The notes under the pieces: generated by a model
What the model was told of the DNA's origin: nothing
Databases searched by the model: none
Seen by the model: only the letters and a program-made list of their open reading frames with translations
Program-made: the position numbers and the translations under genes
In this document: positions 163 through 15,270 of the stretch, piece after piece
Layout of the letters: every line of letters begins with the position of its first letter
How positions within the stretch are numbered: position 1 is the stretch's first letter
IMG/VR virus record: IMGVR_UViG_3300025674_000141
Location: 1-37,245 of that record
Length of the DNA: 37,245 nt
Source of the DNA: a virus
Direction: 5' to 3' (one strand)

Positions 163-651
163 CTATGAAAATGCGAAACGGTCGCGGACGATGTCGAGTA
201 TCGACTCCCGATCGTTTTCAGACAACCCTAAAAACTCACGCGATGGAATATCGCCCCACGGGGTTCGCTTTCCGTACTGTCCCTTTTTAGCCCCGAAGTG
301 AAATGTGCCCGCGTATATCATCGGTGAGCCTATTTCGAGTTCACCATTTGAGACGTTATAAAAAATCTGTGTGCGGAGTTGCTTAGTCTCGCCAGTACCA
401 GCCTTTTTGTTTTTGATGCGTGCGACTTGTTTGGTCTTGAATCGACCCGCATAGTTCAGCAGCGTGACCGTTGAGTTCGCATCCCATTTTTCGCCGTCAG
501 GCGCGGTCTCAGTATTGAAACGATCTTTAGTCGAATCAATCAGCACCTCGCCGATTTCATTCAGCACCGGATCTATGTTGCCGACTGCATCGAGCAGCGC
601 CTGTAACGCAGAGCTGACTTCTTTATCGTCAAGCGTTACAGATACGCTCAT
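163..651 (-). CDS. Phage virion morphogenesis protein, Mu gpG-like / tail completion family
   Basis: A 162-residue protein that resembles the phage virion morphogenesis family (Mu gpG, P2 gpS type), small proteins acting in the last steps of head or tail completion. Family-like features are the N-terminal helical stretch, a central segment around residues 45-60 (DRFNTETAPDGEKWDANS), a glycine-rich FGAKKGQYG near residues 118-127, and the PSREFLGLS segment near 136-144 followed by a helical tail. Its ATG overlaps the stop of the portal fusion gene by 4 bases (ATGA), so it is probably translationally coupled and is the last gene of the leftward packaging operon. No clear terminator follows it. 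The family is fairly sure; the exact step in assembly is not. Confidence 0.82.
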   Translation of the reverse strand: MSVSVTLDDKEVSSALQALLDAVGNIDPVLNEIGEVLIDSTKDRFNTETAPDGEKWDANSTVTLLNYAGRFKTKQVARIKNKKAGTGETKQLRTQIFYNVSNGELEIGSPMIYAGTFHFGAKKGQYGKRTPWGDIPSREFLGLSENDRESILDIVRDRFAFS

Positions 652-2870
652 AAAAACCGCTCCCCAAGTTCGCGCACCAACGCTGCTTTAAACGCGGCCG
701 CAAGCGTTGCATTTAAAGCGATCACTTTTTTAGATGCGATGTCGCGGATCTCAGCGTCGACGCTTGCACCTGGTGCGTAATCCCAACCGTCATCTATATC
801 GCCCGGTTCATCAGCCGCGGGGTCTTCAAAACTTCCGCCTATGCGTTTTGCCGTTGCTTCAGATACAGCGATCACGTAACACGAACAGCCCCAGCCGTTT
901 GGTGTGTAGTGAGTGTCCCACCACGGGTCGTCGTGGCGTCGAACGATTTTGTCCCACTTTAGATGCTGAGGGCGAGGCTCCGCGCTGCCGCCATGGCGAT
1001 ACATTCGGAACGGTGCAACTTTTAACAACTCAGGGTCGTTGAGCTGTGCCAGCCTTCCGGCGTGGTACGTCGATTTCATGTTCGTTGTGTAGATCGTGCG
1101 CGTGCGCCAGTTCTTTTCGCCTTTGTAGTTCCAGCCGGTGCGCTCGATGATGTCGTCGAAGTCGCGGCGGAAATCTTCGATCGTGCCTCCGTTTTCGATC
1201 ACCCGCGTCACCGCGCCAGCAAGGTCATTTAATAGATCTGCTTTCATCGCTCCGGCGACCATAAACCCGCGATCATGCGCCGCGCCTTTGAAATCGTCCC
1301 AACGCTGGGTTGGTACCAGATTGCGCAGACGAATTTGAAGCGCTGCGAGCTGCTCGTTAAATACCGCCGCGGGTTCCGCAAACGCCAGCATTTTCATGCC
1401 GACTTCATTCGCTACGTCTTCCGCGCCGCGTGCTTGAGATACCGCGAATGCGGTCTCTAGCACGACGGTCATATCAAACTCATCGAGCGCGTTGTAACTG
1501 TCTAGCAGCGTCGTGTACAGAGCATCTAAACTGTCAGCGCCGTCGACGATCGCGCGCACTTTCGTCAGCCAAGCATCCATCGGCTCGGCTGCTGCGGTTT
1601 GCAGCTGCTCGGTTAATGTTTGCAGGCGTTGATCGATTGCGGCCGGTTCACCCTCGGCAAACTGCACCGCGTCAGGTTGTGCGGGATCCACTTTCGCGGT
1701 CGGCTCAGCTTTCGCTGGTACCGGCACAAGTTCCTCCGCAACGTCAAAATCCGTTTCTTTTAAATCGTACGAGCGCATGAAATAGTCTTTCGTAAATTTC
1801 ACGCCGGTACCGCTCAGAATTTCGTCACGCTTGGCTTGCTTGTCGTCGACGTCTTCTTGTTCCCATAACTTAAACTTTGGCGCGGGGCCGCTCATGCCGT
1901 TCGCGTACATGATCCACTCGATGAGCGTATTCATTGTGCTCTCGACCAAACCCGCATCACCGTCGCGCAAATCGTCGGCGACTTCTAAGCCGCTTTTCGC
2001 GCTGGCGTTCGTGCTGTTTGATTCGGTCGTTTGGTTTTGCCCAAGCAGCGCGATATTAATTTCGCTGCGGCAGTACATGAGCAACTTTTCATACGCCTCA
2101 GCGGCTCCGGCTTTCGCCGCGGCTTCGATAATATCGACGCTTGAATCGTCGGGTATCACCGCGATCGCATCTTGAACCATGCCTTCTAAATCGGCGGCTA
2201 ATTCGTTTTTTTCGTGAGTCTGTGTATTGCGCGGTACTTTACCCACCAACCACGGCGTGCCGTATTTTTCAGCAAACTGCACCCAGAATCGCAGCCCGCC
2301 TTTCATAAACACCGCGGGCCAGAACACCATGCTCATTTCAGCGATGCCCCACGGGTTTTGATACGTTGGCTCGTTGCGGGGTAATAGAATTTTACGATCT
2401 GGCAACTCGATGCCCGTCATCATTGAGTCGCGGGTGCGGAACCGCAGCTGGTTGTCTGTATTAAACAAAAACCACTCGGGTGGCTTAGCAATTAATTCGC
2501 CCGGCACCGTAAAACGCGGCCCTTTAGCCCATAAAATCTCGATGGGTTGATAGCCGTAAAGTGGTGCTTCGAGAATATCTTTGCGCGCTTTATCCATGTC
2601 GATATCGTCGAGAATTGCCTGAATATTGGCCTCAACCCGCGCTGACGCGTTGCCGCGCTCTAAACCCCACTCCAGCGACGTTACCGCCGCCTTACGTCGA
2701 CGAATCGCACCGCCCACGGCAGCGTGGCCGCGCAAGTCGCGGTAAATAGAAACGTCTTTACCCTTGGCTTTTAAAATCGCATCCGGGTTCGGTAGATAAT
2801 TACCCAGCGCGGTAAAATCGGGCGAGCGATCGCGCGTGACGATGTGGTCAGTGATGGTTTTCTTGCTCAT
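648..2870 (-). CDS. Portal protein (DUF935, Mu gp29-like) fused to Mu F-like head morphogenesis domain
   Basis: This 740-residue protein has two phage head modules. Residues 1 to about 380 look like a DUF935 portal, with conserved-looking stretches such as QNPWGIAEMS (171-180), FAEKYGTPWLVG (199-210) and LLGQNQTTES (275-284). Portals form the ring through which DNA enters the head. After a linker rich in Pro, Ala and Glu (about 380-500), residues about 500-690 match the Mu gpF / SPP1 gp7-like minor head family, including the hallmark TPNGWGCSC (656-664). In Mu these are separate genes (gp29 and gp30). The reading frame is continuous and both halves are intact, so this is a fusion rather than a broken gene. 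Its ATG overlaps the terminase stop by one base. Confidence 0.9.
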   Translation of the reverse strand: MSKKTITDHIVTRDRSPDFTALGNYLPNPDAILKAKGKDVSIYRDLRGHAAVGGAIRRRKAAVTSLEWGLERGNASARVEANIQAILDDIDMDKARKDILEAPLYGYQPIEILWAKGPRFTVPGELIAKPPEWFLFNTDNQLRFRTRDSMMTGIELPDRKILLPRNEPTYQNPWGIAEMSMVFWPAVFMKGGLRFWVQFAEKYGTPWLVGKVPRNTQTHEKNELAADLEGMVQDAIAVIPDDSSVDIIEAAAKAGAAEAYEKLLMYCRSEINIALLGQNQTTESNSTNASAKSGLEVADDLRDGDAGLVESTMNTLIEWIMYANGMSGPAPKFKLWEQEDVDDKQAKRDEILSGTGVKFTKDYFMRSYDLKETDFDVAEELVPVPAKAEPTAKVDPAQPDAVQFAEGEPAAIDQRLQTLTEQLQTAAAEPMDAWLTKVRAIVDGADSLDALYTTLLDSYNALDEFDMTVVLETAFAVSQARGAEDVANEVGMKMLAFAEPAAVFNEQLAALQIRLRNLVPTQRWDDFKGAAHDRGFMVAGAMKADLLNDLAGAVTRVIENGGTIEDFRRDFDDIIERTGWNYKGEKNWRTRTIYTTNMKSTYHAGRLAQLNDPELLKVAPFRMYRHGGSAEPRPQHLKWDKIVRRHDDPWWDTHYTPNGWGCSCYVIAVSEATAKRIGGSFEDPAADEPGDIDDGWDYAPGASVDAEIRDIASKKVIALNATLAAAFKAALVRELGERFL

Positions 2871-4483
2871 TAGTAGCCCTCTAGGATTCCGGCTGATTTG
2901 CGGCGGTGGCTACTCACCACTTCGACCGGCCCTTGTCTCATTTCAATACTGGCGAAAATCGCCAGCGCCAACGACGGCGCAAAGTCGCCGTGGCGATAGG
3001 TGTCTGGGTCTTTTAAATCTTGCCTACGTTGTTTGCTGACCATCGGTATGCCGTCGACTTCTTCGATCGCGCGCAGGTCGTTTGCAAGGTCTTGATCGTT
3101 CGGTACCACGATCGTGCCGTCTTCAAACTGCTGAATCATTTTTGGCATCCACGTGCCATACCATGAGCGCGTTAATTTGATCTCTGCGATGCGGCCGCTG
3201 CCGTATTTATCCGCGGTGTATTCTGCCAGCGTTTCACCGCTGCCGGTTGCGTCGAAGGCACCGCCGGACCAGCGCGGTAAATTGTCGATCACGTACCAGA
3301 TGATCTGCTCTTGTTGGCGCGTCGGTACTTTGTGCATCTCTAACACAAACGGCGTATAGCGTCGGCGGCTTGGTTCAATCGCCAATGGTGTAAAAATAGA
3401 ATAATCGCGGTGCCGCGCAAAATCGTGACCAAATACATGCAGGTGTTCGAGGGTGCATAATTTTAAAACTGGATCGATATTGCGTTTAATCCAATCGTCG
3501 CACCACGCCTCGCGCTCGGCGGGTGCTTTCTCAGTAAAGTCGTCAGCCAAGGATAACCGCACCACGGGGCGCTTAGGCTCGTTTTGCATCGCGTTATCAA
3601 TCCAGATGCCCGGCATGCTTGTGCCGGTACCGTCGCGAGGGATCGCGTCCAGCTCTTCGCGCATTTGTGCTTTACGTGGCCCGTAGCCATTGCGGATTGT
3701 TGCGTACCATTTCTTTTTACCTTCGATGGTCGCGACTTCGCCTTTCATCATGCACACGCGCTCGTACAGACCGTTTGCCACGGCGTCATCGAATGTGCAC
3801 ACGTAGACCGCGGCGCTGTCGCCATAGCGCCCGTCTTGAATATCTTTTATTAGCGCATTAAACGCATTTGCGCGGCCGTAATGCGTACTAATAATTGATA
3901 CACGACCACCCCAGATCAACAACGCCGTCGCCGCATCAATTACCGCCGCGACGTTACGATGGAAAGCGGCCTCGTCGATGATTACCTTGCCTTGCAGGCC
4001 ACGAATGTTTGCCGGGTTACTTGATAGCGCAACGATTTTAAAACCGGATGCGTAACGAATACGGTAGCTAGTGATATTTTTTGTCGAACCATCTTCCTGT
4101 TGATCTTCGAATAAAAATTCTTCGATCTCAGAAATACCACCGGCTTGAGCCATCGCGATGGTTTTAGAAAATTTCGCGCAATAACCAATAAACTCTAAGC
4201 CTTTTTCTTTTGTATCGCCGATGTAATAAACATCCATGCCCCCGGCTTCTTTAGACGCGCCCGCCAATAGCGGTGAATCTAAACCCTCGGCGAAGGTAAT
4301 GCCTGTGCGTCGACCCTTTCCGCAAACCTTAATTGGCGTATCTATGCGCAGCCAATCAATTTGATGCTGCATTAAAACGCCAGCATCCATCGGATTAAAA
4401 CCGTCGGGAATATTACGCGCGCGCGCCGGAAGCTCTTCCCATTCAACGCAGCGGATCGTATCGCCTAGGGGTTTCATCGCCAC
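2870..4483 (-). CDS. Terminase large subunit, Mu gp28-like
   Basis: A 537-residue DNA-packaging ATPase/nuclease. The N-terminal ATPase domain has a Walker A-like stretch GKGRRTGITF (55-64) and a Walker B motif VIIDEA (167-172), followed by the STHYGR coupling-type motif (199-204). The C-terminal RNase H-like nuclease domain shows FGHDFARHRDYS (351-362, Asp354) and DATGSG (411-416, Asp411), both expected to bind metal ions. The length fits the Mu gp28 family. It lies between the small terminase gene and the portal gene, as in Mu, although the whole operon is on the opposite strand to the capsid genes. In transposable phages this enzyme performs headful packaging from integrated copies. Confidence 0.93.
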   Translation of the reverse strand: MAMKPLGDTIRCVEWEELPARARNIPDGFNPMDAGVLMQHQIDWLRIDTPIKVCGKGRRTGITFAEGLDSPLLAGASKEAGGMDVYYIGDTKEKGLEFIGYCAKFSKTIAMAQAGGISEIEEFLFEDQQEDGSTKNITSYRIRYASGFKIVALSSNPANIRGLQGKVIIDEAAFHRNVAAVIDAATALLIWGGRVSIISTHYGRANAFNALIKDIQDGRYGDSAAVYVCTFDDAVANGLYERVCMMKGEVATIEGKKKWYATIRNGYGPRKAQMREELDAIPRDGTGTSMPGIWIDNAMQNEPKRPVVRLSLADDFTEKAPAEREAWCDDWIKRNIDPVLKLCTLEHLHVFGHDFARHRDYSIFTPLAIEPSRRRYTPFVLEMHKVPTRQQEQIIWYVIDNLPRWSGGAFDATGSGETLAEYTADKYGSGRIAEIKLTRSWYGTWMPKMIQQFEDGTIVVPNDQDLANDLRAIEEVDGIPMVSKQRRQDLKDPDTYRHGDFAPSLALAIFASIEMRQGPVEVVSSHRRKSAGILEGY

Positions 4484-4485
4484 GG

Positions 4486-5073
4486 TTAAATCCCCAGCAC
4501 TTTGTTACGCCAGAACGCGACCTGGTCTTCGTCCATGCCCTGAGCACGTGCTGCTGTTTCTGCGTTGCTTGCCGCCTCAGCCAGCGCTTCTTTGCGTGCG
4601 ATCTCTTTAATCTTGACCTCACGATCGGTAGTTTCAGACACGGCTTTTTCTAACTTCTCGTGCGAGTACGCTAGGTCTTTCAGCATCTTGATCGCGCCCG
4701 CGATGATCTCCGGGTCGTCTGCGCCCATCGTGATTTTTTGCAGTGCCAGGGAAACGTCGATCATGGAATTGCGAATAATCTCACTCGTCATGTTCGCAAC
4801 TTTAGACTGCGGCGCAGCACCGAACTCACCGATCCAAATTTCCGCCATTTGGCGTGACTCGCGGATAGCCTTACCGACTTGATCAATATTTAATTTGTAG
4901 CGATTAACGGCAGACTTAGTCACGGGATCTCCGCCCCGGTCTTCAATCAGTTCGTTTATTTTTTCAGTCACTTCTAACTGCGTGAGTTTGGGATCGTTCA
5001 GCCACGCGTGCAGCTGCTCCAACTCGTCCGCTGTTAACCGCTTTTTAATGCTACTTTTTTGGGCCATGATCAC
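4486..5073 (-). CDS. Terminase small subunit, DUF3486 (Mu gp27-like)
   Basis: A 195-residue, strongly helical protein resembling DUF3486, the Mu gp27 family of small terminase subunits that recognise phage DNA and load the large subunit. It opens with a basic KSSIKKRL patch, then a helix-turn-helix-like region (LTQLEVTEKINEL followed by VTKSAVNRYK), then a long helical region with many charged residues, and ends in QVAFWRNKVLGI. Initiation is either GTG at 5073, which overlaps the previous stop as GTGA, or the ATG at 5067 two codons later. I keep the GTG because neighbouring joints show the same 4-base overlap. It lies 2 bases before the large subunit gene. Confidence 0.85.
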   Translation of the reverse strand: MIMAQKSSIKKRLTADELEQLHAWLNDPKLTQLEVTEKINELIEDRGGDPVTKSAVNRYKLNIDQVGKAIRESRQMAEIWIGEFGAAPQSKVANMTSEIIRNSMIDVSLALQKITMGADDPEIIAGAIKMLKDLAYSHEKLEKAVSETTDREVKIKEIARKEALAEAASNAETAARAQGMDEDQVAFWRNKVLGI

Positions 5074-5369
5074 GCCCCCGGCAAAGGACGTGCAACGCCA
5101 GTGACTACCGTGCGACCTTTAGCAACATCAACACCGCGCGCGGTAATTTTTGCAACTTTGCCCACCGCTGACTCAGACACAGTGACCAGCGCCACGTCCG
5201 CCAGCCAGTCTAAATTAGCGCGCACTTTATCCGCGCTTACGCTGTGGCCCATTGCATCGAGGCCCATTTGCAGTACGGTTTCGTTGTGCGAATAGCCCGC
5301 GTCTTGCTCTAGCATTTGCAAAATCAATAGGCGCTGATTTTCTGCGACTCGTTCAGTAAAGTTCATCAC
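5070..5369 (-). CDS. Mu gp26-like protein with winged-helix look
   Basis: A 99-residue protein of the kind found between DUF2730 and DUF3486 genes in Mu-like phages (the VpaChn25_0724 / gp26 group). The sequence reads like a winged helix: helices in LLILQMLEQD and NETVLQMGLDAMG, then VSADKVRANLDWLADVALV as a recognition-type helix and wing, then ITARGVDVAKG. Resemblance to ArsR-type winged helices suggests nucleic-acid binding, possibly linked to packaging, but no function is established from the sequence. Both ends overlap neighbours by 4 bases, which indicates coupled translation. Confidence 0.72.
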   Translation of the reverse strand: MMNFTERVAENQRLLILQMLEQDAGYSHNETVLQMGLDAMGHSVSADKVRANLDWLADVALVTVSESAVGKVAKITARGVDVAKGRTVVTGVARPLPGA

Positions 5370-5749
5370 TTGCCACCTTTGTTTTGATCTAATAAATGTT
5401 GATAGATAAGCGCAGACTGATTCGCCATCGCGTTTGTCGCGCCTTCGACTTTTGACGTCGAGCGAGAAATACCGCTGAGCCGTACGTGTATTTTTTCAAT
5501 GTCTTCGTGGGTGGGGCTGTGTTTTAAATTTGCTTCAACAGTGGTGATACGTTTTTCGTGATCGCTGAGGCTACTTCTTACATCGAGATCTAGCTTTTCA
5601 ATCGCATCATGTACAGACGCGGTAAACTTGTCGAACGCTTCTGGGCTAACCGTCGTTTTACGAAATGACCACGCGATCCAAAATGCGACGGCATTAATTA
5701 GCAACACCAGTATTGGCCAATAGCCGTCGAGCTTATCCGTAAATTCCAT
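5366..5749 (-). CDS. DUF2730 family phage protein (Mu gp25-like)
   Basis: A 127-residue membrane-anchored coiled-coil protein and the first gene of the leftward packaging operon. One hydrophobic segment covers about residues 11-29 (YWPILVLLINAVAFWIAWS), followed by a cytoplasmic or periplasmic helical region with heptad-like spacing (FTASVHDAIEKLDLDVRSS onward). Length, topology and place upstream of gp26-, gp27- and gp28-like genes match DUF2730. Its role in Mu-like phages is unknown. Translation probably begins at the ATG at 5749, preceded by a purine-rich GAGATCAGA stretch; the promoter is expected in 5750-5897. Confidence 0.75.
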   Translation of the reverse strand: MEFTDKLDGYWPILVLLINAVAFWIAWSFRKTTVSPEAFDKFTASVHDAIEKLDLDVRSSLSDHEKRITTVEANLKHSPTHEDIEKIHVRLSGISRSTSKVEGATNAMANQSALIYQHLLDQNKGGK

Positions 5750-5897: not shown

Positions 5898-6131
5898 ATG
5901 GATAACCAACACAAAAAAATTGCAGGCTATCGCGAGCTGAATCAGCAAGAAATTGACTTAATGAACGAAGTCAAAGAAAAAGCTGAAGAGCTACGTGTAC
6001 TTGTTGAAAAGCTCGAAAATCCGATTGCTGATATCAATCCAGACCAGCGCTGGGTCGCTATTGGAAAAACGGATTTACAAACGGGTTGTATGGCACTGGT
6101 GCGATCAATCGCAAAGCCGACCACGTTTTAA
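5898..6131 (+). CDS. acb2: Acb2/Tad1 hairpin-family protein, likely anti-CBASS cyclic-nucleotide sponge
   Basis: This 77-residue, all-helical protein carries the two hallmark segments of the Acb2 family: an N-terminal KIAGYREL followed by EIDLMNEVKEKAEEL (residues 7-32), and a C-terminal DQRWVAIGKTDLQTGCMALV helix (about 49-68) ending in RSIAKP. Acb2 proteins form hexamers that bind cyclic di- and trinucleotides, so the CBASS effector of the host is not activated. The size fits, and members occur in Pseudomonas B3/D3112-type phages. The start at 5898 follows a GGGGCGG ribosome site; an ATG at 5892 is followed directly by TAA. It is the first gene after palindrome A and precedes the lysis genes. 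The family call is good; ligand range is not predictable from sequence. Confidence 0.83.
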   Translation: MDNQHKKIAGYRELNQQEIDLMNEVKEKAEELRVLVEKLENPIADINPDQRWVAIGKTDLQTGCMALVRSIAKPTTF

Positions 6132-6161
6132 TTAGCTTTTTACGTATCGGAGGGCCACAGA

Positions 6162-6695
6162 ATGCAACGTCATAAAATCACGAATGATTTTTATCTCGAT
6201 GAATTCACCCGCAGCCAAACTGCGGCACGCTACGGCATTGATAACAGCCTGAGCGTGAGTGGCCCAACGTATGCTAACTTGCGACGTTTATGCCGCGACG
6301 TGCTGCAACCGATCCGCAATTATCTTGGCGTGACTGTTAGCGTGAGCAGCGGCTACCGCTGCTTAGCACTCAACCGAAAAATTGGCGGGGCAGATAGCTC
6401 ACAGCATGTACCTGCACTTGCTGCAGATATAAACGCCGCGGGTAAAACCCCGATGGAATTAGCGCGGGACATCGTCGATTTAAAAATGCGTCGTGAAATT
6501 AATTTTGATCAACTCATATTAGAGTTCGGGCAATGGGTACATATATCTACGCCCAGCCGCTCCGGTTTTGAGCGCAGCGAAATACTCACGGCAGTCAAAG
6601 TGCCGCGTAAATTTCGCAAACCAAAAACAGTGTACGTACGCGGACTGCACACCCAAGAAGACGCGCTGAAAATTGCGCAAGGTCGTGCGTTATGA
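6162..6695 (+). CDS. Endolysin, peptidase M15 family (D-Ala-D-Ala carboxypeptidase-like)
   Basis: A 177-residue zinc peptidase expected to cut peptidoglycan stem peptides at lysis. The M15 zinc site is visible: S80-x-H82 with Asp89 (SQHVPALAADI) and His127 in WVHIS, with Glu121 placed as the likely general base. VSSGYRCLALN (61-71) is also typical. The last 45 residues (about 133-177) are basic and may contact the cell wall. There is no signal peptide, so release would depend on the holin encoded next. An AGGAGG-like site (CGGAGGGCC) lies just before the ATG. The gene overlaps the next by 4 bases. Confidence 0.88.
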   Translation: MQRHKITNDFYLDEFTRSQTAARYGIDNSLSVSGPTYANLRRLCRDVLQPIRNYLGVTVSVSSGYRCLALNRKIGGADSSQHVPALAADINAAGKTPMELARDIVDLKMRREINFDQLILEFGQWVHISTPSRSGFERSEILTAVKVPRKFRKPKTVYVRGLHTQEDALKIAQGRAL

Positions 6696-6961
6696 GAGCG
6701 GTACCGACGCTGTGCGATAGCCGCGGCAAACAAAGCGTCACGCTGTTTTTTGTGAGCGTGTCGTGGCTTGTGCTCATTATTAAATTTGTCGCATCGGGCA
6801 TGGAAACCCCATTTGGGTTAGTGCCCGACATGAACGCCGCTGATTTTGGCCTTGCCGCGGTCGGTATTTTAGGCGCTTGGGTGGGCCGTGAATACACCGA
6901 AAAACAAACACAGAAACCGTATTTAAACGGTGACACTCGCGAGCCGGAGCACTATGAATAA
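6692..6961 (+). CDS. Putative holin, two membrane segments
   Basis: An 89-residue membrane protein directly after the endolysin gene and before the spanins, the usual holin position. Two hydrophobic segments are visible, about residues 16-36 (VTLFFVSVSWLVLIIKFVASG) and 48-64 (DFGLAAVGILGAWVGRE), joined by a short loop with PFGLVPDMN, and followed by a charged tail. It would open the inner membrane and let the endolysin out. No holin family can be named with confidence; the call rests on topology, size and context. It overlaps the endolysin gene (ATGA) and the following spanin gene. Confidence 0.68.
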   Translation: MRAVPTLCDSRGKQSVTLFFVSVSWLVLIIKFVASGMETPFGLVPDMNAADFGLAAVGILGAWVGREYTEKQTQKPYLNGDTREPEHYE

Positions 6962-7232
6962 CTGGGCATCACGATTAATCGGCTGGCTTGCCGCCCTCGG
7001 TGCTATGGCAGCCATGTTTTACAAAAGCAAAGCCGCCACAGAAAAAGCCAAGCGCGAAGCGGAAAAAGCTGAGTACGAAGAAGAACGCGCGGATCGTGCA
7101 GAGCATACCGCCGACACGTATCAACGCATCAACACCCAGCGCGCCGAGTTAGAACAACAGCACCAGCAGGAGCAATTAAATGATGAGACCAGCATTGATG
7201 GCCGCGATCATTTTAATAATCGCTTTAAATAG
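6954..7232 (+). CDS. Inner-membrane spanin subunit (Rz-like)
   Basis: A 92-residue protein with one N-terminal membrane segment (about residues 7-23, LIGWLAALGAMAAMFY) followed by a long, highly charged coiled coil rich in Lys, Glu and Ala. This is the i-spanin plan: anchored in the inner membrane with a periplasmic coil that joins an outer-membrane lipoprotein and disrupts the outer membrane at lysis. I choose the ATG at 6954, whose product begins MNNWASR, instead of the upstream 6930 start, because it overlaps the end of the holin gene in the compact manner of this operon. The o-spanin gene starts inside its 3' end in another frame. Confidence 0.78.
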   Translation: MNNWASRLIGWLAALGAMAAMFYKSKAATEKAKREAEKAEYEEERADRAEHTADTYQRINTQRAELEQQHQQEQLNDETSIDGRDHFNNRFK

Positions 7233-7431
7233 CGGCTGTGCCACGCGCATTGAATATCAAACGTTACCGCTGCCAATCGTGCCTCGCCCTGTATTACCCG
7301 CGATCGCGCCCGAAGAGCTAACGTGTTTGAGCGATGAGACATATACAACACTCGTCACGCGCCAGCGTCTGTTACGTCAGTGGGGCGAGGATATGGAATT
7401 AATTATTATGAATACGCAGGTCAAACAATGA
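7180..7431 (+). CDS. Outer-membrane spanin lipoprotein (Rz1-like)
   Basis: An 83-residue lipoprotein with a signal sequence MMRPALMAAIILIIALNSGC whose lipobox LNSGC places the lipidated Cys at residue 20. The mature part starts with a proline-rich stretch (LPLPIVPRPVLPAIAPEE), as in Rz1 proteins, and ends in a helical segment. It starts inside the i-spanin gene in a different frame, the overlapping arrangement typical of spanin pairs. AGGAGCAATTAA supplies the ribosome site just before the ATG at 7180. Together with Rz it should span the periplasm and fuse the membranes at lysis. Confidence 0.83.
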   Translation: MMRPALMAAIILIIALNSGCATRIEYQTLPLPIVPRPVLPAIAPEELTCLSDETYTTLVTRQRLLRQWGEDMELIIMNTQVKQ

Positions 7432-8789
7432 TTAAAAGCCCATTGCGCCCCGCGATGACGCAACCGCTCACATCGCCGTATGAATTGATTACGCGCTCGG
7501 TGTTTGAGCTTAACGGCACTCAATGGGGTGAGTTGAGTGATCAAATAGTGCTGCCAAACGTATTTGAATTGGAGATTTTCTTTTCCTCTGCTTTAGAATC
7601 TGCGCAAAGGTTGGTTGCTAATAATGAAACTGACTTCTCATTACATCTTAATGGCACGGCAAAACCTTCTGTAAAATTAACGGCAGGTAATGGTGATATT
7701 TCGTACATAACACTAGCTGACACAGTTAATGATGGGAAAGCGAGATCTATTATATTTAAGAGGAACGGTGATACTTTCACACTAACAAGTGAATACGAAA
7801 CTTTAGTCAGAGTATTTGAGGACATTGGAACGCTTACTATAGATGGAGTTCTAGGCGTTGAATCATCAAACCAGAGATTAATAGGTATCGCCTTTGGCCT
7901 AAAAATCTGGACTAACGGCGACCGCAATACCGGCGATTTAATTCTCAACGTTCCTTTCGATGAATCAGGCTCTGACTACCAGCGTAATCGTGCGGTGGCG
8001 TTGGGGGTATCTCTTCTACCTGCTACCAGTATTGCTGATGGTACTGGCTGGGCCTCTACTTCTGTCGAGTTCGACAACGCCTTGATATTTGAAAACGAAG
8101 ATAATTTCGCTGGTGCAAATTACGACATAGGTTATTCATATTCCACTACCTATGAGATTGAATTTGAAATATTTGACTATGTGTCTGGCAATTTACAGGC
8201 AACCTTTGAGGGGGTTGGCTCTGAAAATAAGGCAGGCAATGGTATTTATAAGGTTTATTTAAAATCTCCGGCTGCTGGATTAACCCGGTTTTCCTTGCGG
8301 GCAAGAAATGGGGTTGGAGAAGGGACATTCAAAGTCAGAAACATTTCAATTAGGGGATGGTCAGGCGTCATACTGCAAAACGCGCTACCTGAGCACTGGC
8401 TGCAGATCGAGCGTAAGCGTTATTGGGATTATTGGCTAAAGCCGAATTTCTGGGACGCTGCGAATGTAATTACCACCGGTGCTTGTACTGCCACCGGTAA
8501 TTCAATTGAGTTTTCAATGACTAATACAACGCTGGCTGGGGCTAGATTGCCGGGCATTGAAGACAGTCATGTATATCAAATCTCTGGCTATAGCGATGTT
8601 GTTGGTGTGATTAATCCGACTCAATCAACTGGATTTGCAGATAATATCGCTGTGCCATTGGAGAATCGATTTGTGTACGACTCGACGGGTGTAGGTTTAA
8701 CTCTGGGTATTAAGCGTCAGCAAGGCGAAATTGTTACGGGCCAAGTGCGCGACATTACAGTTCGAGAAAAACTGGAGATAGCCCAATGA
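7428..8789 (+). CDS. Putative carbohydrate-binding virion or tail-tip protein, unrecognised
   Basis: A 453-residue, beta-rich protein. The start at 7428 (product MIKSPLRPAM) overlaps the o-spanin stop as ATGA and is preferred over the longer reading from 7380. Residues about 30-170 look like a concanavalin/laminin-G-type sheet domain (ELEIFFSSAL, PSVKLTAGNGD, SIIFKRNGDTFTL, LIGIAFGLKIWTNGD). Residues about 205-310 look like a CBM-type jelly roll (YDIGYSYSTTYEIEFEIFDY, FSLRARNGVGEGTFKVRNIS), and a similar module may recur in the last 100 residues. Such modules occur in receptor-binding or decoration proteins, but no family is certain. Between about 7560 and 8340 the gene is clearly richer in A+T than its neighbours, which suggests acquired modules. 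Its place among lysis genes is odd for a tail protein. Confidence 0.5.
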   Translation: MIKSPLRPAMTQPLTSPYELITRSVFELNGTQWGELSDQIVLPNVFELEIFFSSALESAQRLVANNETDFSLHLNGTAKPSVKLTAGNGDISYITLADTVNDGKARSIIFKRNGDTFTLTSEYETLVRVFEDIGTLTIDGVLGVESSNQRLIGIAFGLKIWTNGDRNTGDLILNVPFDESGSDYQRNRAVALGVSLLPATSIADGTGWASTSVEFDNALIFENEDNFAGANYDIGYSYSTTYEIEFEIFDYVSGNLQATFEGVGSENKAGNGIYKVYLKSPAAGLTRFSLRARNGVGEGTFKVRNISIRGWSGVILQNALPEHWLQIERKRYWDYWLKPNFWDAANVITTGACTATGNSIEFSMTNTTLAGARLPGIEDSHVYQISGYSDVVGVINPTQSTGFADNIAVPLENRFVYDSTGVGLTLGIKRQQGEIVTGQVRDITVREKLEIAQ

Positions 8790-9157
8790 GCATTTCCAAA
8801 TACAACCCTGCGCTTTATTGCTCAATATTAATCCCCGGCTCGTTTGTCGTACCGGCAAATCACAGTGCGTTATCTACCGTCGATGTCACAAAAAATGGTA
8901 ATGCGCTAACTGTAGTTATTTTTGTCGGCACGAATCATTTTAAAGATGAAGCTGGCAATCCGGTTACGCCCGAAGGCTATCTGTCTAACGACGAATATTT
9001 TCTACTGCGCACAATGCTCGAACACACCGACGAAAACGGCGTATTTCACGAACGCGTTTTGCCTTACCCTTGGGAAGACATCGACGCTCTCGTTACGAAA
9101 ATGCGCGAAGCCGCTGCACAACAATCACAAACCACCGAGGAATTACCCGATGCATAA
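8786..9157 (+). CDS. Hypothetical phage protein, 123 residues
   Basis: Not recognised. The protein is soluble, starts with MSISKYNPALYCSILIPGSF, has a beta-type central part and a helical acidic C-terminus (PWEDIDALVTKMREAAAQQ). The ATG overlaps the stop of the preceding beta-rich protein by 4 bases, and its own end overlaps the next gene, so it is translated with both. Pairing with a large virion protein would suit a chaperone or partner for that protein, but nothing in the sequence proves this. Confidence 0.6.
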   Translation: MSISKYNPALYCSILIPGSFVVPANHSALSTVDVTKNGNALTVVIFVGTNHFKDEAGNPVTPEGYLSNDEYFLLRTMLEHTDENGVFHERVLPYPWEDIDALVTKMREAAAQQSQTTEELPDA

Positions 9158-9584
9158 CGTAAACCCCTTTGAATTTTTAATAAGCAGGCTAGCGCTGCCG
9201 ATATCTGTGATCGTTTTAGGACTCCTGATCGCGGTAGCCGTGCTTTTAATCACAGCCAGTTTTCCCGCCGTCGCGTGTTTATTGCTGTTTTTAGCGGTGC
9301 TACCACCCACGCGAAAGTGGGCGGCGGTGAAGGCGTATCATTTGTGGCGCGCGTTCGATTGTTTGTGCAACGCGTTTTTATTTCACGACAGCCGCGAAAC
9401 GATATCAAGCCGACTGGGAAAGGCGATTTATCACCAGCACCCGCCAGTATTTAATTTTTTAATTATTGATAAAGGCGTTGCGTGGCTGCTGAATAACGTT
9501 GACCGGGATCACTGCAAAAAGTCGATTGACTGGAGCGTTGGCCGCGGTGCCGCTTGGAATCTACACGATCACTGGAGTATTTAA
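9150..9584 (+). CDS. Conserved phage membrane protein, 144 residues
   Basis: The N-terminal third holds two adjacent hydrophobic segments (about residues 15-33, LALPISVIVLGLLIAVAVL, and 35-52, ITASFPAVACLLLFLAVL). The soluble remainder includes GKAIYHQHPPVF and the DRDHCKKSIDW segment. I recall similar His-Cys-containing C-termini in other phage membrane proteins of unknown role, but cannot name the family. The ATG at 9150 follows a GAGG ribosome site at 9137-9140 and overlaps the previous gene by 8 bases; a longer upstream reading in the same frame (from 8922) has no support. It may be a late membrane or lysis-associated protein. Confidence 0.6.
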   Translation: MHNVNPFEFLISRLALPISVIVLGLLIAVAVLLITASFPAVACLLLFLAVLPPTRKWAAVKAYHLWRAFDCLCNAFLFHDSRETISSRLGKAIYHQHPPVFNFLIIDKGVAWLLNNVDRDHCKKSIDWSVGRGAAWNLHDHWSI

Positions 9585-9586
9585 AC

Positions 9587-9859
9587 ATGGCATCAAAAAC
9601 ATACACAGGCGCGGCAGACGTTGCTAGCGCCACGGCAATTAGCTTAACCGCTAACAACTCCCAACCCGTCGATATTTACAACATCGCGAACACGGGCACA
9701 GCGTCTGCCACTGTGCATGTACTGCTGAAAGGCGCGGCGGATTACGCGGAGCTGGAGGGTGACGTACCGGCCGGTACGCTGAAAATCATCGAAGGCTTGC
9801 GCGAAGTTGAGTCGTTGAAAATTGTAGGAACAGGATCGGCGGGCGTCGTGACTGCGTGA
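9587..9859 (+). CDS. Small beta-rich protein, possible decoration or stabilising protein
   Basis: A 90-residue protein rich in Ala, Thr, Val and Gly with alternating hydrophobic residues (AISLTANNSQPVDIYNIAN, SATVHVLLKG, LKIVGTGSAGVVTA), as in small beta-sandwich virion proteins. There is no signal peptide, Cys or recognisable motif. Start: the ATG at 9587 follows GGAG at 9574-9577 and comes 2 bases after the preceding stop. It is the last gene of the rightward lysis operon. A virion role is a guess from composition and neighbours. Confidence 0.55.
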   Translation: MASKTYTGAADVASATAISLTANNSQPVDIYNIANTGTASATVHVLLKGAADYAELEGDVPAGTLKIIEGLREVESLKIVGTGSAGVVTA

Positions 9860-9949: not shown

Positions 9950-10438
9950 TTAATTCAGCGCCGCACGTTCATCTCGTAGCCGTGACAAGTTCTGGCGTTC
10001 GTTTTCAAGTAATGTTTGATATTTAGTCGTAACCGAATTCATTTCTTCACTAATGCTGGTTTCCCACTGGGCACCAGCCATATTGTTATTTGCTCGCAGT
10101 TTTTTGGATCGCAGCGCATTGAGTTCTTGCTGCATTGATTTCGTCTGCTGATCCAGTTTGCGTTCTGATTTAGCAATGTCGCGGTCTAATTGCCGGATTT
10201 TATTGTCACGAAATAAATCATCGGCTAATTCACTGGGGCTTTTTGCGCTGGGTGAATAGCTTGTTTGTTGGGCCGGTGGTTCATAGCTTTCATACTCGTG
10301 TTTCTTCGATGCACTCTGCCCGCCACACGGCATCGCCTGAAATGACTTTTTACCGTTGGCATCCGTGCATGAGTAATACGATCCCGCCCAGGTGTTGCTT
10401 GCGAGTGTGAGTAATGCGATAGCGATTAATTTCAGCAT
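9950..10438 (-). CDS. Secreted DUF4124 coiled-coil protein (moron-like)
   Basis: A 162-residue exported protein. Residues 1-18 form a signal peptide (MLKLIAIALLTLASNTWA, then GSYY). Residues about 20-45 match a DUF4124 core (YYSCTDANGKKSFQAMPCGG, with two Cys likely disulfide-bonded), a periplasmic domain common in Gammaproteobacteria. A low-complexity stretch rich in Ser, Pro and Tyr follows, then a long charged coiled coil from about 75 to the end. It belongs with the next minus-strand gene in a small island between lysis genes and repressor, a usual place for lysogenic-conversion cargo. Role unknown; a periplasmic or envelope effect on the host is plausible. Confidence 0.7.
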   Translation of the reverse strand: MLKLIAIALLTLASNTWAGSYYSCTDANGKKSFQAMPCGGQSASKKHEYESYEPPAQQTSYSPSAKSPSELADDLFRDNKIRQLDRDIAKSERKLDQQTKSMQQELNALRSKKLRANNNMAGAQWETSISEEMNSVTTKYQTLLENERQNLSRLRDERAALN

Positions 10439-10509
10439 AGTAATCTCCTTATTTAGTTCCTTGAGTAATCATCGCGATTTTTTCAAACTCAGAACGTCCT
10501 GTTTCTCTT

Positions 10510-11328
10510 TTACGACATCGCCGCCGCGCGTTGTTCGCGAGGGCTAGCGCTTTTTAGTGTCGTGGTGTCCCCCGGAAAAAACGGCGGTACATGCTTATTA
10601 TTCGTCGGATCAAATTGATAGTTGCTAACAATCACGTTGGTCGCTGGATCATCGATTTCGAGTTTCACACTGCAACCCATATCAATCACCATCATTGCTA
10701 ACTGCTCATGACGCTGCGTGTTGAAGTAGCGCGCTTGAATGCTGGTTATTAGTAGCATTCGTTTGGCTCGTTTTCTCTTTTTTGTTTCGCTGGGTTTTTC
10801 GAGCGGATCGGGTTCTGTTTCAAACCATGACCACGCTGCGAGGTCTGGCCATTGGTCGGCTGCGTTGAACGCGGCTTTCGCCTGGTCAAACCACGGCCAG
10901 ACAAAATCGCTATCGCCGAGGGCTTGCTCCATCGCTTTGTTATTTTGAGTTTCTGCCGCTACGGATATCGCAATAATTTGATTCTCGGATAGCGTTGAGC
11001 CTTTGAGGATATCTTGCGTAACCGTTAAATAATCCGGTGCCGTTTTTGTTTTTAATGCTTTTTGAGTCGTCGGCGCGGGGTGCATAACCGGCGCGGATTT
11101 TTTGCTCTCAATCATTGAGTGCGCGCAATACGGGCAGACTTTCGCTTTTTTACTGATTTTTTTATCGCACTGAGGGCAATTATTTAAGTCGCCTTTTACA
11201 AAATACAAAAACACAGCAAGTGGACCGAGCAACGCGCCACAAATAGCGCCGAGCACGACGCTAAACTTTTTTTTCTGTGCTGCGGCGGCACCTATTAGCG
11301 CCCCTAAAATTACAAAATATAAAAACAT
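10510..11328 (-). CDS. Membrane protein with zinc ribbon, unknown function (moron-like)
   Basis: A 272-residue protein. Two hydrophobic segments lie at about residues 1-18 (MFLYFVILGALIGAAAA) and 24-44, then a zinc ribbon with Cys51, Cys54, Cys65 and Cys68 (CPQCDKK...CPYC). A Lys/Pro/Thr linker leads to a helical region (about 100-185) containing several Trp and DSDFVWPWFDQAK, then a final domain with NTQRHEQLAMMVIDMGCSV. I do not recognise the C-terminal domain. It is likely cytoplasmic, tethered to the inner membrane, and may be expressed in the lysogen because it lies just behind the repressor gene on the same strand (42-base gap). A defence or superinfection-exclusion role is possible but only inferred from position. 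Confidence 0.6.
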   Translation of the reverse strand: MFLYFVILGALIGAAAAQKKKFSVVLGAICGALLGPLAVFLYFVKGDLNNCPQCDKKISKKAKVCPYCAHSMIESKKSAPVMHPAPTTQKALKTKTAPDYLTVTQDILKGSTLSENQIIAISVAAETQNNKAMEQALGDSDFVWPWFDQAKAAFNAADQWPDLAAWSWFETEPDPLEKPSETKKRKRAKRMLLITSIQARYFNTQRHEQLAMMVIDMGCSVKLEIDDPATNVIVSNYQFDPTNNKHVPPFFPGDTTTLKSASPREQRAAAMS

Positions 11329-11369
11329 AGCAATCTCCCTATTGAATTTGTGTTCTTAATAGGAACACT

Positions 11370-11786
11370 TTAACCCGATTTTTTTAACTCTTCCATTTGG
11401 TCTTGCAACGCCTTTAGGTTTTTTTCCATTTCGGCTATCCGCTGCCTCTCCTTAGCATCCTGTATAACTTCCTGCTGCTGTTCCATATCTAACCCGTTGA
11501 ATAACTCCAGCACGATCTCTTCACGTTTAGATAAGCCATATGACGCCGCTGGTTCTTTAATGCCAGCCGTCGGCGCTTGGCCGGTTCCACTGATTAACCA
11601 ATCTAACGACACGCCATGCTTCTTTGCGATGTTTACGCATAATGCGTACGGTATGCTATTTCTGGATTTCCACGAGCTGACTGTTTGGGCGTTAGTACTG
11701 AGTGCTTTAGCCAGCGCAGAGTCTGATTCCACGTCGTGAATACTTTTGAGCCGTGCGATAACGGCATCTACTGAGTCTTTCTGCAT
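11370..11786 (-). CDS. CI-like phage repressor, short form
   Basis: A 138-residue transcriptional repressor. Residues about 5-65 form a helix-turn-helix of the phage CI repressor type (DAVIARLKSIHDVESDSALA, ALSTNAQTVSSWKSRNSIPY, then HGVSLDWLISGTG, the usual end of that domain). The C-terminus is an acidic helical coiled coil (residues about 100-138), presumably for oligomerisation. There is no S24 self-cleavage domain, so induction should not follow the usual RecA cleavage route. I prefer the ATG at 11786 over the one at 11816, because the latter lies inside the operator and has no ribosome site. It is transcribed away from the early operon. Confidence 0.8.
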   Translation of the reverse strand: MQKDSVDAVIARLKSIHDVESDSALAKALSTNAQTVSSWKSRNSIPYALCVNIAKKHGVSLDWLISGTGQAPTAGIKEPAASYGLSKREEIVLELFNGLDMEQQQEVIQDAKERQRIAEMEKNLKALQDQMEELKKSG

Positions 11787-11803
11787 TTTGTTGATTCTCA
11801 AGC

Positions 11804-11842
11804 TTGACATACGCATTTTGCGTATATAATGTATGCATAATG
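11804..11842 (+). promoter_or_regulatory. Early rightward promoter with overlapping repressor operator
   Basis: TTGACA (11804-11809) and TATAAT (11825-11830) match the sigma-70 boxes perfectly, though the spacer is only 15 bp. An inverted repeat ATACGC-ATTTT-GCGTAT (11809-11825) fills the spacer, and a related half-site GTATGC follows at 11831. The three half-sites start at 11809, 11820 and 11831, exactly 11 bp apart. A further TATGCATA palindrome covers 11832-11839. A repressor bound here would block the early operon beginning at 11876 and could also control its own gene on the other strand. Confidence 0.72.
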
Positions 11843-11875
11843 AGTACAGCTTAACTAAATGGGTAAAGAGAATCT

Positions 11876-13545: not shown

Positions 13546-15270
13546 ATGGCATTGCCCGCAGAAATGCTGGTCGATGCTTGGCGGGAGGCCGAATCCGCTG
13601 GGCACGGCAAGAAGCAAAAGGTTTTAAAAGATTTGGCCGCGCGGCTTGGTGTGTCGCTCTCGACTCTCTACCGCGAGCTAGAAGACTTGGGTTTAAAAAA
13701 GGGTCGTAAGCAACGCAAGGACGCGGGCCAGATGGTACTGCCACTGGCGGAGGCGCAAGTGCTTAGCGCATTCATGATGCAGAGTTACCGCGCCAACAAT
13801 AAAAAACTGGCGACTATTACAGGGTCTTTGGACGTGTTGCGCGCTAATGGCGCGATTACCGCCGGTCGAGTCAATGAGAGTACCGGCGAGTTTTTACCGC
13901 TCAGTGAGACCGCCTGTGCACGCGCGTTGCGCACTTACGGTTTGCATCCCGACCAGTTGCGCCGCCCATCGCCGTCGATCCAGCAGCGTAGCGCGCATCC
14001 GAATGATGTGTGGGAAATCGATGCGTCAATCAGCACGCTATTTTATGTGCCCGAGGACGGCCTAGCGGACATGGCACCCGGCGAGTTTTACAAAAACAAA
14101 CCGGCTAACTTCGAAAGAATTAAGCGCCAGCGTTTAACGCGCTACGTGATTACGGATCACACCAGTGGCGCTGTGTTTGTTTGGTACGTCGCCGGTGGCG
14201 AGAGCATCGCTAATTTAGGCGAATCGTTCTTAGAAGCTGTGCGCGAGAAGCAAGGCGAAGCGCTGTACGGCGTACCGTTTCACTTGTATTACGACCCCGG
14301 ATCAGCGGCTACCAAAACCTTTAAACGCTTTTTATCCGCGCTGGGGATCACTCCCGTTGTACATGCCGTGGGTAATGCCCGCGCCACCGGTCAAGTCGAG
14401 GTCACACACAATATCGTCGAGACGCGTTTCGAAATGGGCTTTAAGTTCACCCACGTGCCAAACATTCAATGGATTAACGAGCAAGCGCGTCGGTTTTGTC
14501 GCTGGTTTAACTCCAAGCAAGTCCACACCCGCACGGGCAAAACGCGCTTGAACGTGTGGATGGAAATTACCCAATTTCAACTGCGAATTGTCGACGTTGA
14601 TTTAGCCGCTGAGTTACTAACCCGAGAGCCGGAAGAGAAAAAAGTGCGTGACAACCTGCGCGTATCTTTCCGCGGCGCACTCTACGACGTATCGCAGGTG
14701 CACGCTGTACGGATCGGCGAAAAGCTGGCGATTACGGTTAACCCGCTGACGCCAGATACCGCCTACGTTGTTACTTACGTTGACGGTCAAGAGCTGCTCC
14801 AACCCATACCAAAAATCGTTGTCGACGAATACGGCTTTGAATCCGAGGCACCGTTAATCGGTCGCGAGTTTAAAGGCATGGCCGACACCGAGTTGGATGT
14901 TAATCGTAAATCTATTCAGCGCCTGATCTACGAGGTAGACACCGACGACGAGGCCACCGCCGCCGCCAAAGCCAAAAAGCTGCCGTTTGGTGGGCGTATC
15001 GACCCGTACAAACATCTTGATGACCTACCACAAATCGCCGTACTGCCGCGCCGCGGAACACAGCATGACGTTAACGCTAGCCGCATTGAGGAGCGTGTTT
15101 TAACCCACGCCGAGGCCGCTATGCAGCTACGCCAACGTGTGACATGGAACGCGGCACGTTACGCAGAGTTAGTGCGTAAGTACCCACTGGGCTTGACCGA
15201 GGCAGACATCGAAGCGATGGCCACCTACTGGAGTACAGCAAATGTAGTTCAGATCGGAGGTAAATCGTAA
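13546..15270 (+). CDS. Transposase (MuA-like, DDE/rve integrase fold)
   Basis: A 574-residue recombinase that inserts and replicates the phage by transposition. Residues about 25-50 form a helix-turn-helix (VLKDLAARLGVSLSTLYREL). The catalytic core shows Asp159 (VWEIDAS), Asp250 (LYYDPGS) and Glu285 (TGQVEVTHN), with 34 residues between the last two, the spacing expected of DD35E enzymes. After about residue 370 comes a Mu transposase C-terminal-type beta domain (RVSFRGALYDVSQ), and then a basic/acidic tail that in Mu contacts MuB and ClpX. It starts 2 bases after the upstream gene, and its TAA overlaps the ATG of the ATPase gene. Confidence 0.93.
   Translation: MALPAEMLVDAWREAESAGHGKKQKVLKDLAARLGVSLSTLYRELEDLGLKKGRKQRKDAGQMVLPLAEAQVLSAFMMQSYRANNKKLATITGSLDVLRANGAITAGRVNESTGEFLPLSETACARALRTYGLHPDQLRRPSPSIQQRSAHPNDVWEIDASISTLFYVPEDGLADMAPGEFYKNKPANFERIKRQRLTRYVITDHTSGAVFVWYVAGGESIANLGESFLEAVREKQGEALYGVPFHLYYDPGSAATKTFKRFLSALGITPVVHAVGNARATGQVEVTHNIVETRFEMGFKFTHVPNIQWINEQARRFCRWFNSKQVHTRTGKTRLNVWMEITQFQLRIVDVDLAAELLTREPEEKKVRDNLRVSFRGALYDVSQVHAVRIGEKLAITVNPLTPDTAYVVTYVDGQELLQPIPKIVVDEYGFESEAPLIGREFKGMADTELDVNRKSIQRLIYEVDTDDEATAAAKAKKLPFGGRIDPYKHLDDLPQIAVLPRRGTQHDVNASRIEERVLTHAEAAMQLRQRVTWNAARYAELVRKYPLGLTEADIEAMATYWSTANVVQIGGKS

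Follow-up and report, generated by a model that had tools for sequence, protein, structure and literature searches.

What do the two genes do that lie behind the repressor gene of a transposable phage, on its strand and against the direction of the lysis genes? They occur in a virus record of 37,245 bases, referred to here as the window, and encode proteins of 162 and 272 residues (Table 1). The original prediction described them as a two-gene accessory island, made up of a secreted DUF4124 coiled coil and a membrane zinc-ribbon protein, which could be transcribed in the lysogen and together sense or alter the envelope. Both ORFs were found as described, and their orientation was borne out by the ORF strands and the repressor's match to Phage_CI_repr. 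We favour the view that the two genes are independent cargo (morons) directly downstream of CI, expressed in the lysogen and acting on the envelope, with superinfection exclusion (most likely) or another lysogenic trait as the net effect. The probability of this reading is roughly 0.45.

A cargo slot behind the repressor gene

The gene set marks the window as a transposable phage similar to B3. Transposase A (13546-15270) matched 58 phage records, 51 of them from Pseudomonas, with 40-45% identity in the best 20 of the 58 matches. It is followed by transposition protein B, a Mor-like activator, a protease and the major head protein, while terminase, portal and neck protein lie in the left part of the window. 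A Thalassolituus MAG and an Oceanospirillaceae MAG each hold a relative of the transposase (70% and 67% identity), so the host probably belongs to the Oceanospirillaceae. The terminase and portal genes (163-5749) are divergent from the lysis-side genes, which converge on the repressor operon. A single 740-residue ORF (648-2870) combines the portal (phrog_113) with a Mu gpF-like minor head protein (phrog_220; PF04233, E 7e-13), and its match in L015 spans residues 6-685 unbroken.

Table 1. Features of the window and contents of the slot behind CI in related phages. CTD, C-terminal domain of the 272-residue protein.
Feature	Position	Strand	Basis or content
Lysis-side genes	5898-9859	+	endolysin phrog_894, spanin-like ORF; convergent with repressor and cargo
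DUF4124 protein, 162 aa	9950-10438	-	PF13511, composition, hydropathy, relatives in L011 and L003
Relic between the cargo genes: last 13 codons and stop of an L008/L004-type repressor	10469-10510	-	blastn; frame by eye
272-aa membrane protein	10510-11328	-	two hydrophobic segments, zinc-ribbon motif, C-terminal domain
CTD (residues 97-272), phrog_14940-like	10513-11040	-	profile match; tblastn to L005, 28%, E 2e-26
Identity step against L002, inside the 272-aa gene	11030-11050		63-85% over 11039-11269, 92-100% in the CTD
N-terminal anchor and zinc ribbon (residues 1-72), exchangeable module	11113-11328	-	phrog_8436, E 1.3e-4, residues 3-73
Inverted repeat GTGTTC CTATTAA GAACAC (gene's strand), gap between repressor and 272-aa gene	11350-11368		also in L002
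CI-type repressor, heads the cargo genes	11370-11816	-	PF07022 (Phage_CI_repr), E 1.7e-15; phrog_4, 1.2e-11
Operator-like palindrome ATACGCA nnn TGCGTAT, overlaps the annotated repressor start	11809-11825		11810-11869 identical in L002
Slot of the window			CI, 272-aa protein, DUF4124 coil
Slot of L002			272-aa protein (87%), g329, g171; contig ends about 120 bases into g171
Slot of L008			g329, g171
Slot of L011 (same matches in L009, L018)			DUF4124 coil (50%), g329, g171
Slot of L005			CTD alone (242 aa, 28%), DUF4124-led coil protein
Slot of L020			487-aa protein: hydrophobic N-terminus, another domain, CTD
Slots of L004 and L007	L004 8001-8618; L007 4707-5351		DUF4124 leader fused to one other domain common to both
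Slot of L012			DUF4124-like leader, coil, another end

The region behind CI could be read in nine phages, the window included, after records of the same contig or with the same matches had been merged; L003, which ends inside the DUF4124 gene, and L006 and L010, in which the slot is not reached, were left out. In L002, L011 and L012 tblastn located CI; for L004, L005, L007, L008 and L020 the assignment was made by eye. In all nine phages the first gene after CI lies on the strand of CI, and its identity varies. The CTD and a DUF4124-led protein are both present in two phages, the CTD only in two, a DUF4124-led protein only in four, and neither in one. A variable cargo slot directly downstream of CI is thus well supported, as is the lack of co-occurrence of the two genes. 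The original prediction had named absent co-conservation as a result that would count against it, and within the limits of nine phages this is what the pair shows. Recurrent exported or membrane products of the slot are DUF4124-led proteins, the membrane protein g171 and the CTD with a transmembrane anchor. The group forms a compact natural series of cargo: an exported leader is reused with four different C-termini, a phage-type domain comes in three arrangements, and recombination has left visible seams.

A wider group of 90 relatives reduced to 80 loci, 11 close and 69 more distant. In 55 of the latter, which form 51 groups at 90% identity, the sequence upstream of the transposase is 5 kb or longer; these loci were chosen by length and not by readability of the slot. 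A DUF4124-led protein lies beyond a repressor-like ORF (by eye), on the same strand, in five of these 55 loci, directly after it in L053 and as the second gene in L029, L074, L089 and L091. The CTD occurs in none of the 55.

g329 (phrog_3482) and g171 occur together in all three close phages with g329 (L008 6521-8031, L011 5705-7215, L002 8936-10040, the last being cut by the contig end). As a candidate co-conserved pair they are more promising than the 272-residue and DUF4124 proteins, and L035 holds a distant relative of g329.

In the lysogen, the cargo genes would most likely share the transcript of the repressor. Between 9800 and 12000 no promoter-like site was found, against 3.0 expected in shuffles, which leaves even the repressor-cargo operon presumptive; neither promoter nor terminator rose above chance level. 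The inverted repeat ahead of the 272-residue gene may be an operator or an mRNA hairpin, and could let CI or another factor tune the cargo.

Expression of the slot is made most plausible by the B3-like phage Fc02: strand-specific RNA-seq of the lysogen showed transcripts of the repressor and of e4, an accessory gene immediately behind it (PMC9936078). Like the cargo of the window, e4 lies directly downstream of the repressor on the same strand; it is missing from some beetreviruses. In the available text of that report e4 is given no function, and the exclusion genes of Fc02, olg1 and gene 10, are located elsewhere. By position, e4 is gp20, annotated as "hypothetical protein", with a lipoprotein-like start (lipobox by eye). 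The likeness drawn here is one of position, and e4 is one gene rather than two. The lysis genes differ as well: in Fc02 the repressor, gp20, holin and endolysin share one direction, whereas those of the window run against the repressor. At least one B3-like phage thus keeps a lysogen-on gene at this site, and the predicted expression of accessory, envelope-directed genes in the lysogen is plausible by this analogy.

The DUF4124 protein and the envelope

The 162-residue protein has a signal peptide-like start (about residues 1-18, by eye and hydropathy), a DUF4124 part (9-58) that contains both of its cysteines, C24 and C38, a linker, and a charged, coil-like stretch (about 79-162). It just passes the PF13511 cut-off (22.2 against 22 bits); among its relatives, that of L011 reaches 29.1, and those of L007 (21.9) and L004 (19.4) fall below the cut-off. 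The C-terminal stretch is highly charged and free of proline, a composition that could form a coiled coil. The DUF4124 assignment in the original prediction therefore stands, while export and coil are predictions made by eye and from composition. Its relative in L011 shares 50% identity, and residues 78-158 reach 78% in L003. Purifying selection against the nearest relatives (dN/dS 0.21 for the 43-codon DUF4124 leader against L004, 0.23 for the 272-residue protein against its 87% relative in L002) makes both cargo ORFs look like real genes.

The closest described counterpart in layout, and the clearest pointer to a function, is TfpC of Neisseria gonorrhoeae, a DUF4124 protein with a signal, a proline-rich stretch and a charged coiled coil, which keeps pili extended (PMC7593972). 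The phage protein has the same predicted order of signal, DUF4124, linker and charged C-terminal coil, the comparison being one of layout only; mature TfpC has 147 residues, the phage protein 162 with its signal. TfpC differs in being chromosomal and in having a short transmembrane helix after the signal, which is not seen in the phage protein. In the available text, its authors do not decide whether more distantly related DUF4124 proteins have any effect on pili (PMC7593972). By analogy, the DUF4124 protein would enter the periplasm and, like TfpC, target a machine of the envelope, in the likeliest case type IV pili. In each of the three genomes examined from the host group, two PilT-family genes score above the cut-off; such genes pass it in five of 14 control genomes. 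Interference of this kind is known from the Mu-like phages D3112 and DMS3, which inhibit pilus assembly (PMC11436027). Together with SieA of P22, Gp05 of D3112 and Aqs1 of DMS3 represent prophage proteins that either stop DNA from passing, acting from the inner membrane, or disable type IV pili (PMC11436027, as far as its available text goes). The analogy with the window's genes is one of setting only, and no sequence relation is claimed. With this setting and these precedents, a role of the two genes in exclusion falls a little short of even odds.

DUF4124 proteins are also found in bacterial chromosomes, which raises the alternative that the two genes serve host fitness (envelope stability, motility, metal or redox sensing) and have no anti-phage role. 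Relatives of the DUF4124 coil occur in 13 of 44 host-family genomes at E 1e-10, one of them being the prophage copy of L018, and the zinc ribbon of the 272-residue protein might sense metal or redox state. That the slot turns over fast and the CTD is of phage type would fit a conflict between phages better, which leaves a pure fitness role rather unlikely. The best chromosome-like match to the DUF4124 coil is in L104 (123 bits), and a relative in L105 belongs to another Mu-like prophage, where it adjoins a Mor-like gene (both named by eye). DUF4124 as such is common in hosts, with 4, 8 and 11 matches in three genomes (prophage copies counted), and in the Thalassolituus MAG one such gene lies next to a rimO-like gene. 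In Ralstonia, a DUF4124 gene lies upstream of vgrG in two secretion clusters, with no function given in the available text (PMC11481896).

The 272-residue protein and its C-terminal domain

Two hydrophobic segments (about residues 1-19 and 21-46) are followed by a CxxC-10-CxxC motif (51-68), the four cysteines of a ribbon, and all five tryptophans fall at 144-168. The picture of a membrane protein with several tryptophans in its C-terminal domain thus agrees with the sequence, and the zinc ribbon proper is below every Pfam cut-off, the best being UPF0547 (26.9 against 29 in the window, 28.8 against 29 in L002). The anchor module is missing from L005 and replaced by a different anchor in L020; used alone, anchor and zinc ribbon had no match in 42 host-family genomes, in a search run without a positive control. 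PADLOC showed no meaningful match of either protein to a known anti-phage defence family, with no match to the 162-residue protein at E 0.1 and, for the 272-residue protein, nothing beyond LmuB at 12.4 bits (E 0.009), on the zinc ribbon. The structure model of the whole 272-residue protein (pLDDT 55) is too poor for interpretation, and Foldseek found nothing with it at E 1e-3.

By profile comparison, the CTD resembles a phage family, phrog_14940, for which no curated cut-off exists. The versions in L020 (1.3e-11) and L005 (6e-8) match clearly; those in the window (4.2e-5) and L002 (1e-4) match weakly, with no single stretch passing alone in either. By tblastn the CTD had no match among 50,697 phage records; there, neither the two window proteins nor the CTD of L005 found a match as queries, and the L020 protein found a weak one, to its middle part. 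Among plasmid records, the 272-residue protein gave one match, to the zinc ribbon only (E 0.6), and the L005 CTD none. The family was present in one of 293 host-order genomes and none of 14 controls; the count of zero among 369 class genomes is weak, as that search gave no match anywhere. A scan of genome contigs, within the limits of its patterns, found no CTD relative, and sequence searches of the PDB gave nothing meaningful. The original prediction had named a housekeeping family as what would speak against it, and none was seen.

The host-order match lies in a 636-residue ORF of L097 near a nuclease-related (NERD-type)-like ORF (68-1285 and 1483-3393; by eye), on a contig on which no phage genes were noticed, so the family may not be confined to phages.

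A possible origin of the CTD is suggested by L093, where a relative is found among clustered head genes, next to a Mu gpG-like gene and a protease, both named by eye. The L093 protein aligns with the CTD family by hhalign (97.8%, E 1e-12, 213 columns), and its residues 141-249 align with proteins of the Mu gpF type, namely that of phage RC1 (36%, E 2e-17) and the window's own portal-F protein (E 2e-6). The likeness to the CTD has its limits: in L093 the domain is among head genes and carries a Mu gpF-like end, while in the window it is anchored beside the repressor and lacks a SAP-like segment. Direct kinship of CTD and gpF was set aside: hhalign of the two profiles gave 0.4%, and PF04233 matched the gpF proteins of RC1 and of the window and neither the 272-residue protein nor that of L093. 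Since direct comparison finds nothing, it is the L093 bridge that carries this kinship. The gpF of Rhodobacter phage RC1 (L098 3725-5011) has a C-terminal PBECR3 nuclease-like domain.

The L005 CTD could be modelled better (pLDDT 71), its gpF-like end mostly below 50. With this model, Foldseek found nothing at E 1e-3 in either the PDB or the viral set, where the best match was an uncharacterised protein (E 0.009); seven of 50 among the viral matches listed, all above E 1e-3, are named minor capsid, head morphogenesis or MuF. The model contains a helical, SAP-like segment that can be aligned to FAN1 at Z 6.0 and to T4 endonuclease VII at Z 5.1, values below 8 that may reflect mere arrangement. 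The aligned region of FAN1 is presumably its SAP domain.

Such a segment could point to a membrane-tied nucleic-acid-binding regulator or DNA-handling protein that serves lysogeny control rather than exclusion. As the first gene after the repressor, preceded by a palindrome, the CTD gene is well placed for such a role, and repressor and anchor part have diverged from L002 to a similar synonymous extent (0.89 and 0.92). The SAP-like segment is, however, missing from the copies in the window and in L002, and five of the nine phages manage without the gene, so that this explanation appears improbable.

As independent cargo, the 272-residue protein would be an inner-membrane protein with its soluble, phage-type domain probably on the cytoplasmic face; the L005 version, which has neither membrane part nor signal, argues for a cytoplasmic CTD. 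The soluble domain might then interfere with incoming phage DNA or its pilot proteins. A more specific version, which we regard as a long shot, makes the CTD a derivative of a Mu gpF-like minor head protein, mounted on swappable membrane anchors and coexpressed with the repressor as a decoy or plug at the inner membrane, where it would trap DNA ejected by related phages, or their pilot proteins; anchors and CTDs would be shuffled separately. If exclusion is the true function, the means by which prophages shut out rivals would come to include a periplasmic protein like TfpC and a membrane protein related to head proteins. Within a limited collection of literature, neither the CTD nor a DUF4124 gene linked to a repressor was found described, and nothing pertinent was seen among the papers listed on exclusion and minor head proteins.

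Recombination seams within the slot

The relic between the two cargo genes matches the repressor end of L008 by blastn (36 bp, 94%), and its region matches L004 over 189 bp (91.5%), from the repressor end into the DUF4124 gene. In L004 the DUF4124 gene directly follows the repressor, and in the window the same gene start follows the relic. L002 has a related relic after the same 272-residue gene, with an internal stop, then a spacer of the L008 type and g329. From these remains, a cassette of a new repressor and the 272-residue gene appears to have replaced an older repressor, and the cargo beyond this junction differs between phages.

A second seam lies inside the 272-residue gene. Synonymous divergence from L002 drops sharply near 11,040, from 0.92 in the anchor part to 0.12 in the CTD, and this step is, on sequence comparison, a recombination seam at the junction of anchor and CTD. 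At 0.89, the divergence of the repressor is similar to that of the anchor part, as if the two had moved together. If the exclusion reading is correct, the locus also illustrates how a repressor and its cargo travel together.

The original idea of a joint unit, in which a periplasmic sensor and a membrane effector would form one two-component exclusion system, is very improbable: although CI, CTD protein and DUF4124 coil protein follow in the same order in the window and in the divergent L005, a DUF4124 gene could lie beyond the end of the L002 contig, about 120 bases into g171, and nine phages are few, the two genes co-occur in only two of the nine, the CTD is found without DUF4124 in L002 and L020 and DUF4124 without the CTD in L004, L007, L011 and L012, and the repressor relic separates the genes in the window.

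The GC content of 9950-11328 is 46.3%, a value as low as that reached by only about 8% of the window's stretches of the same length.
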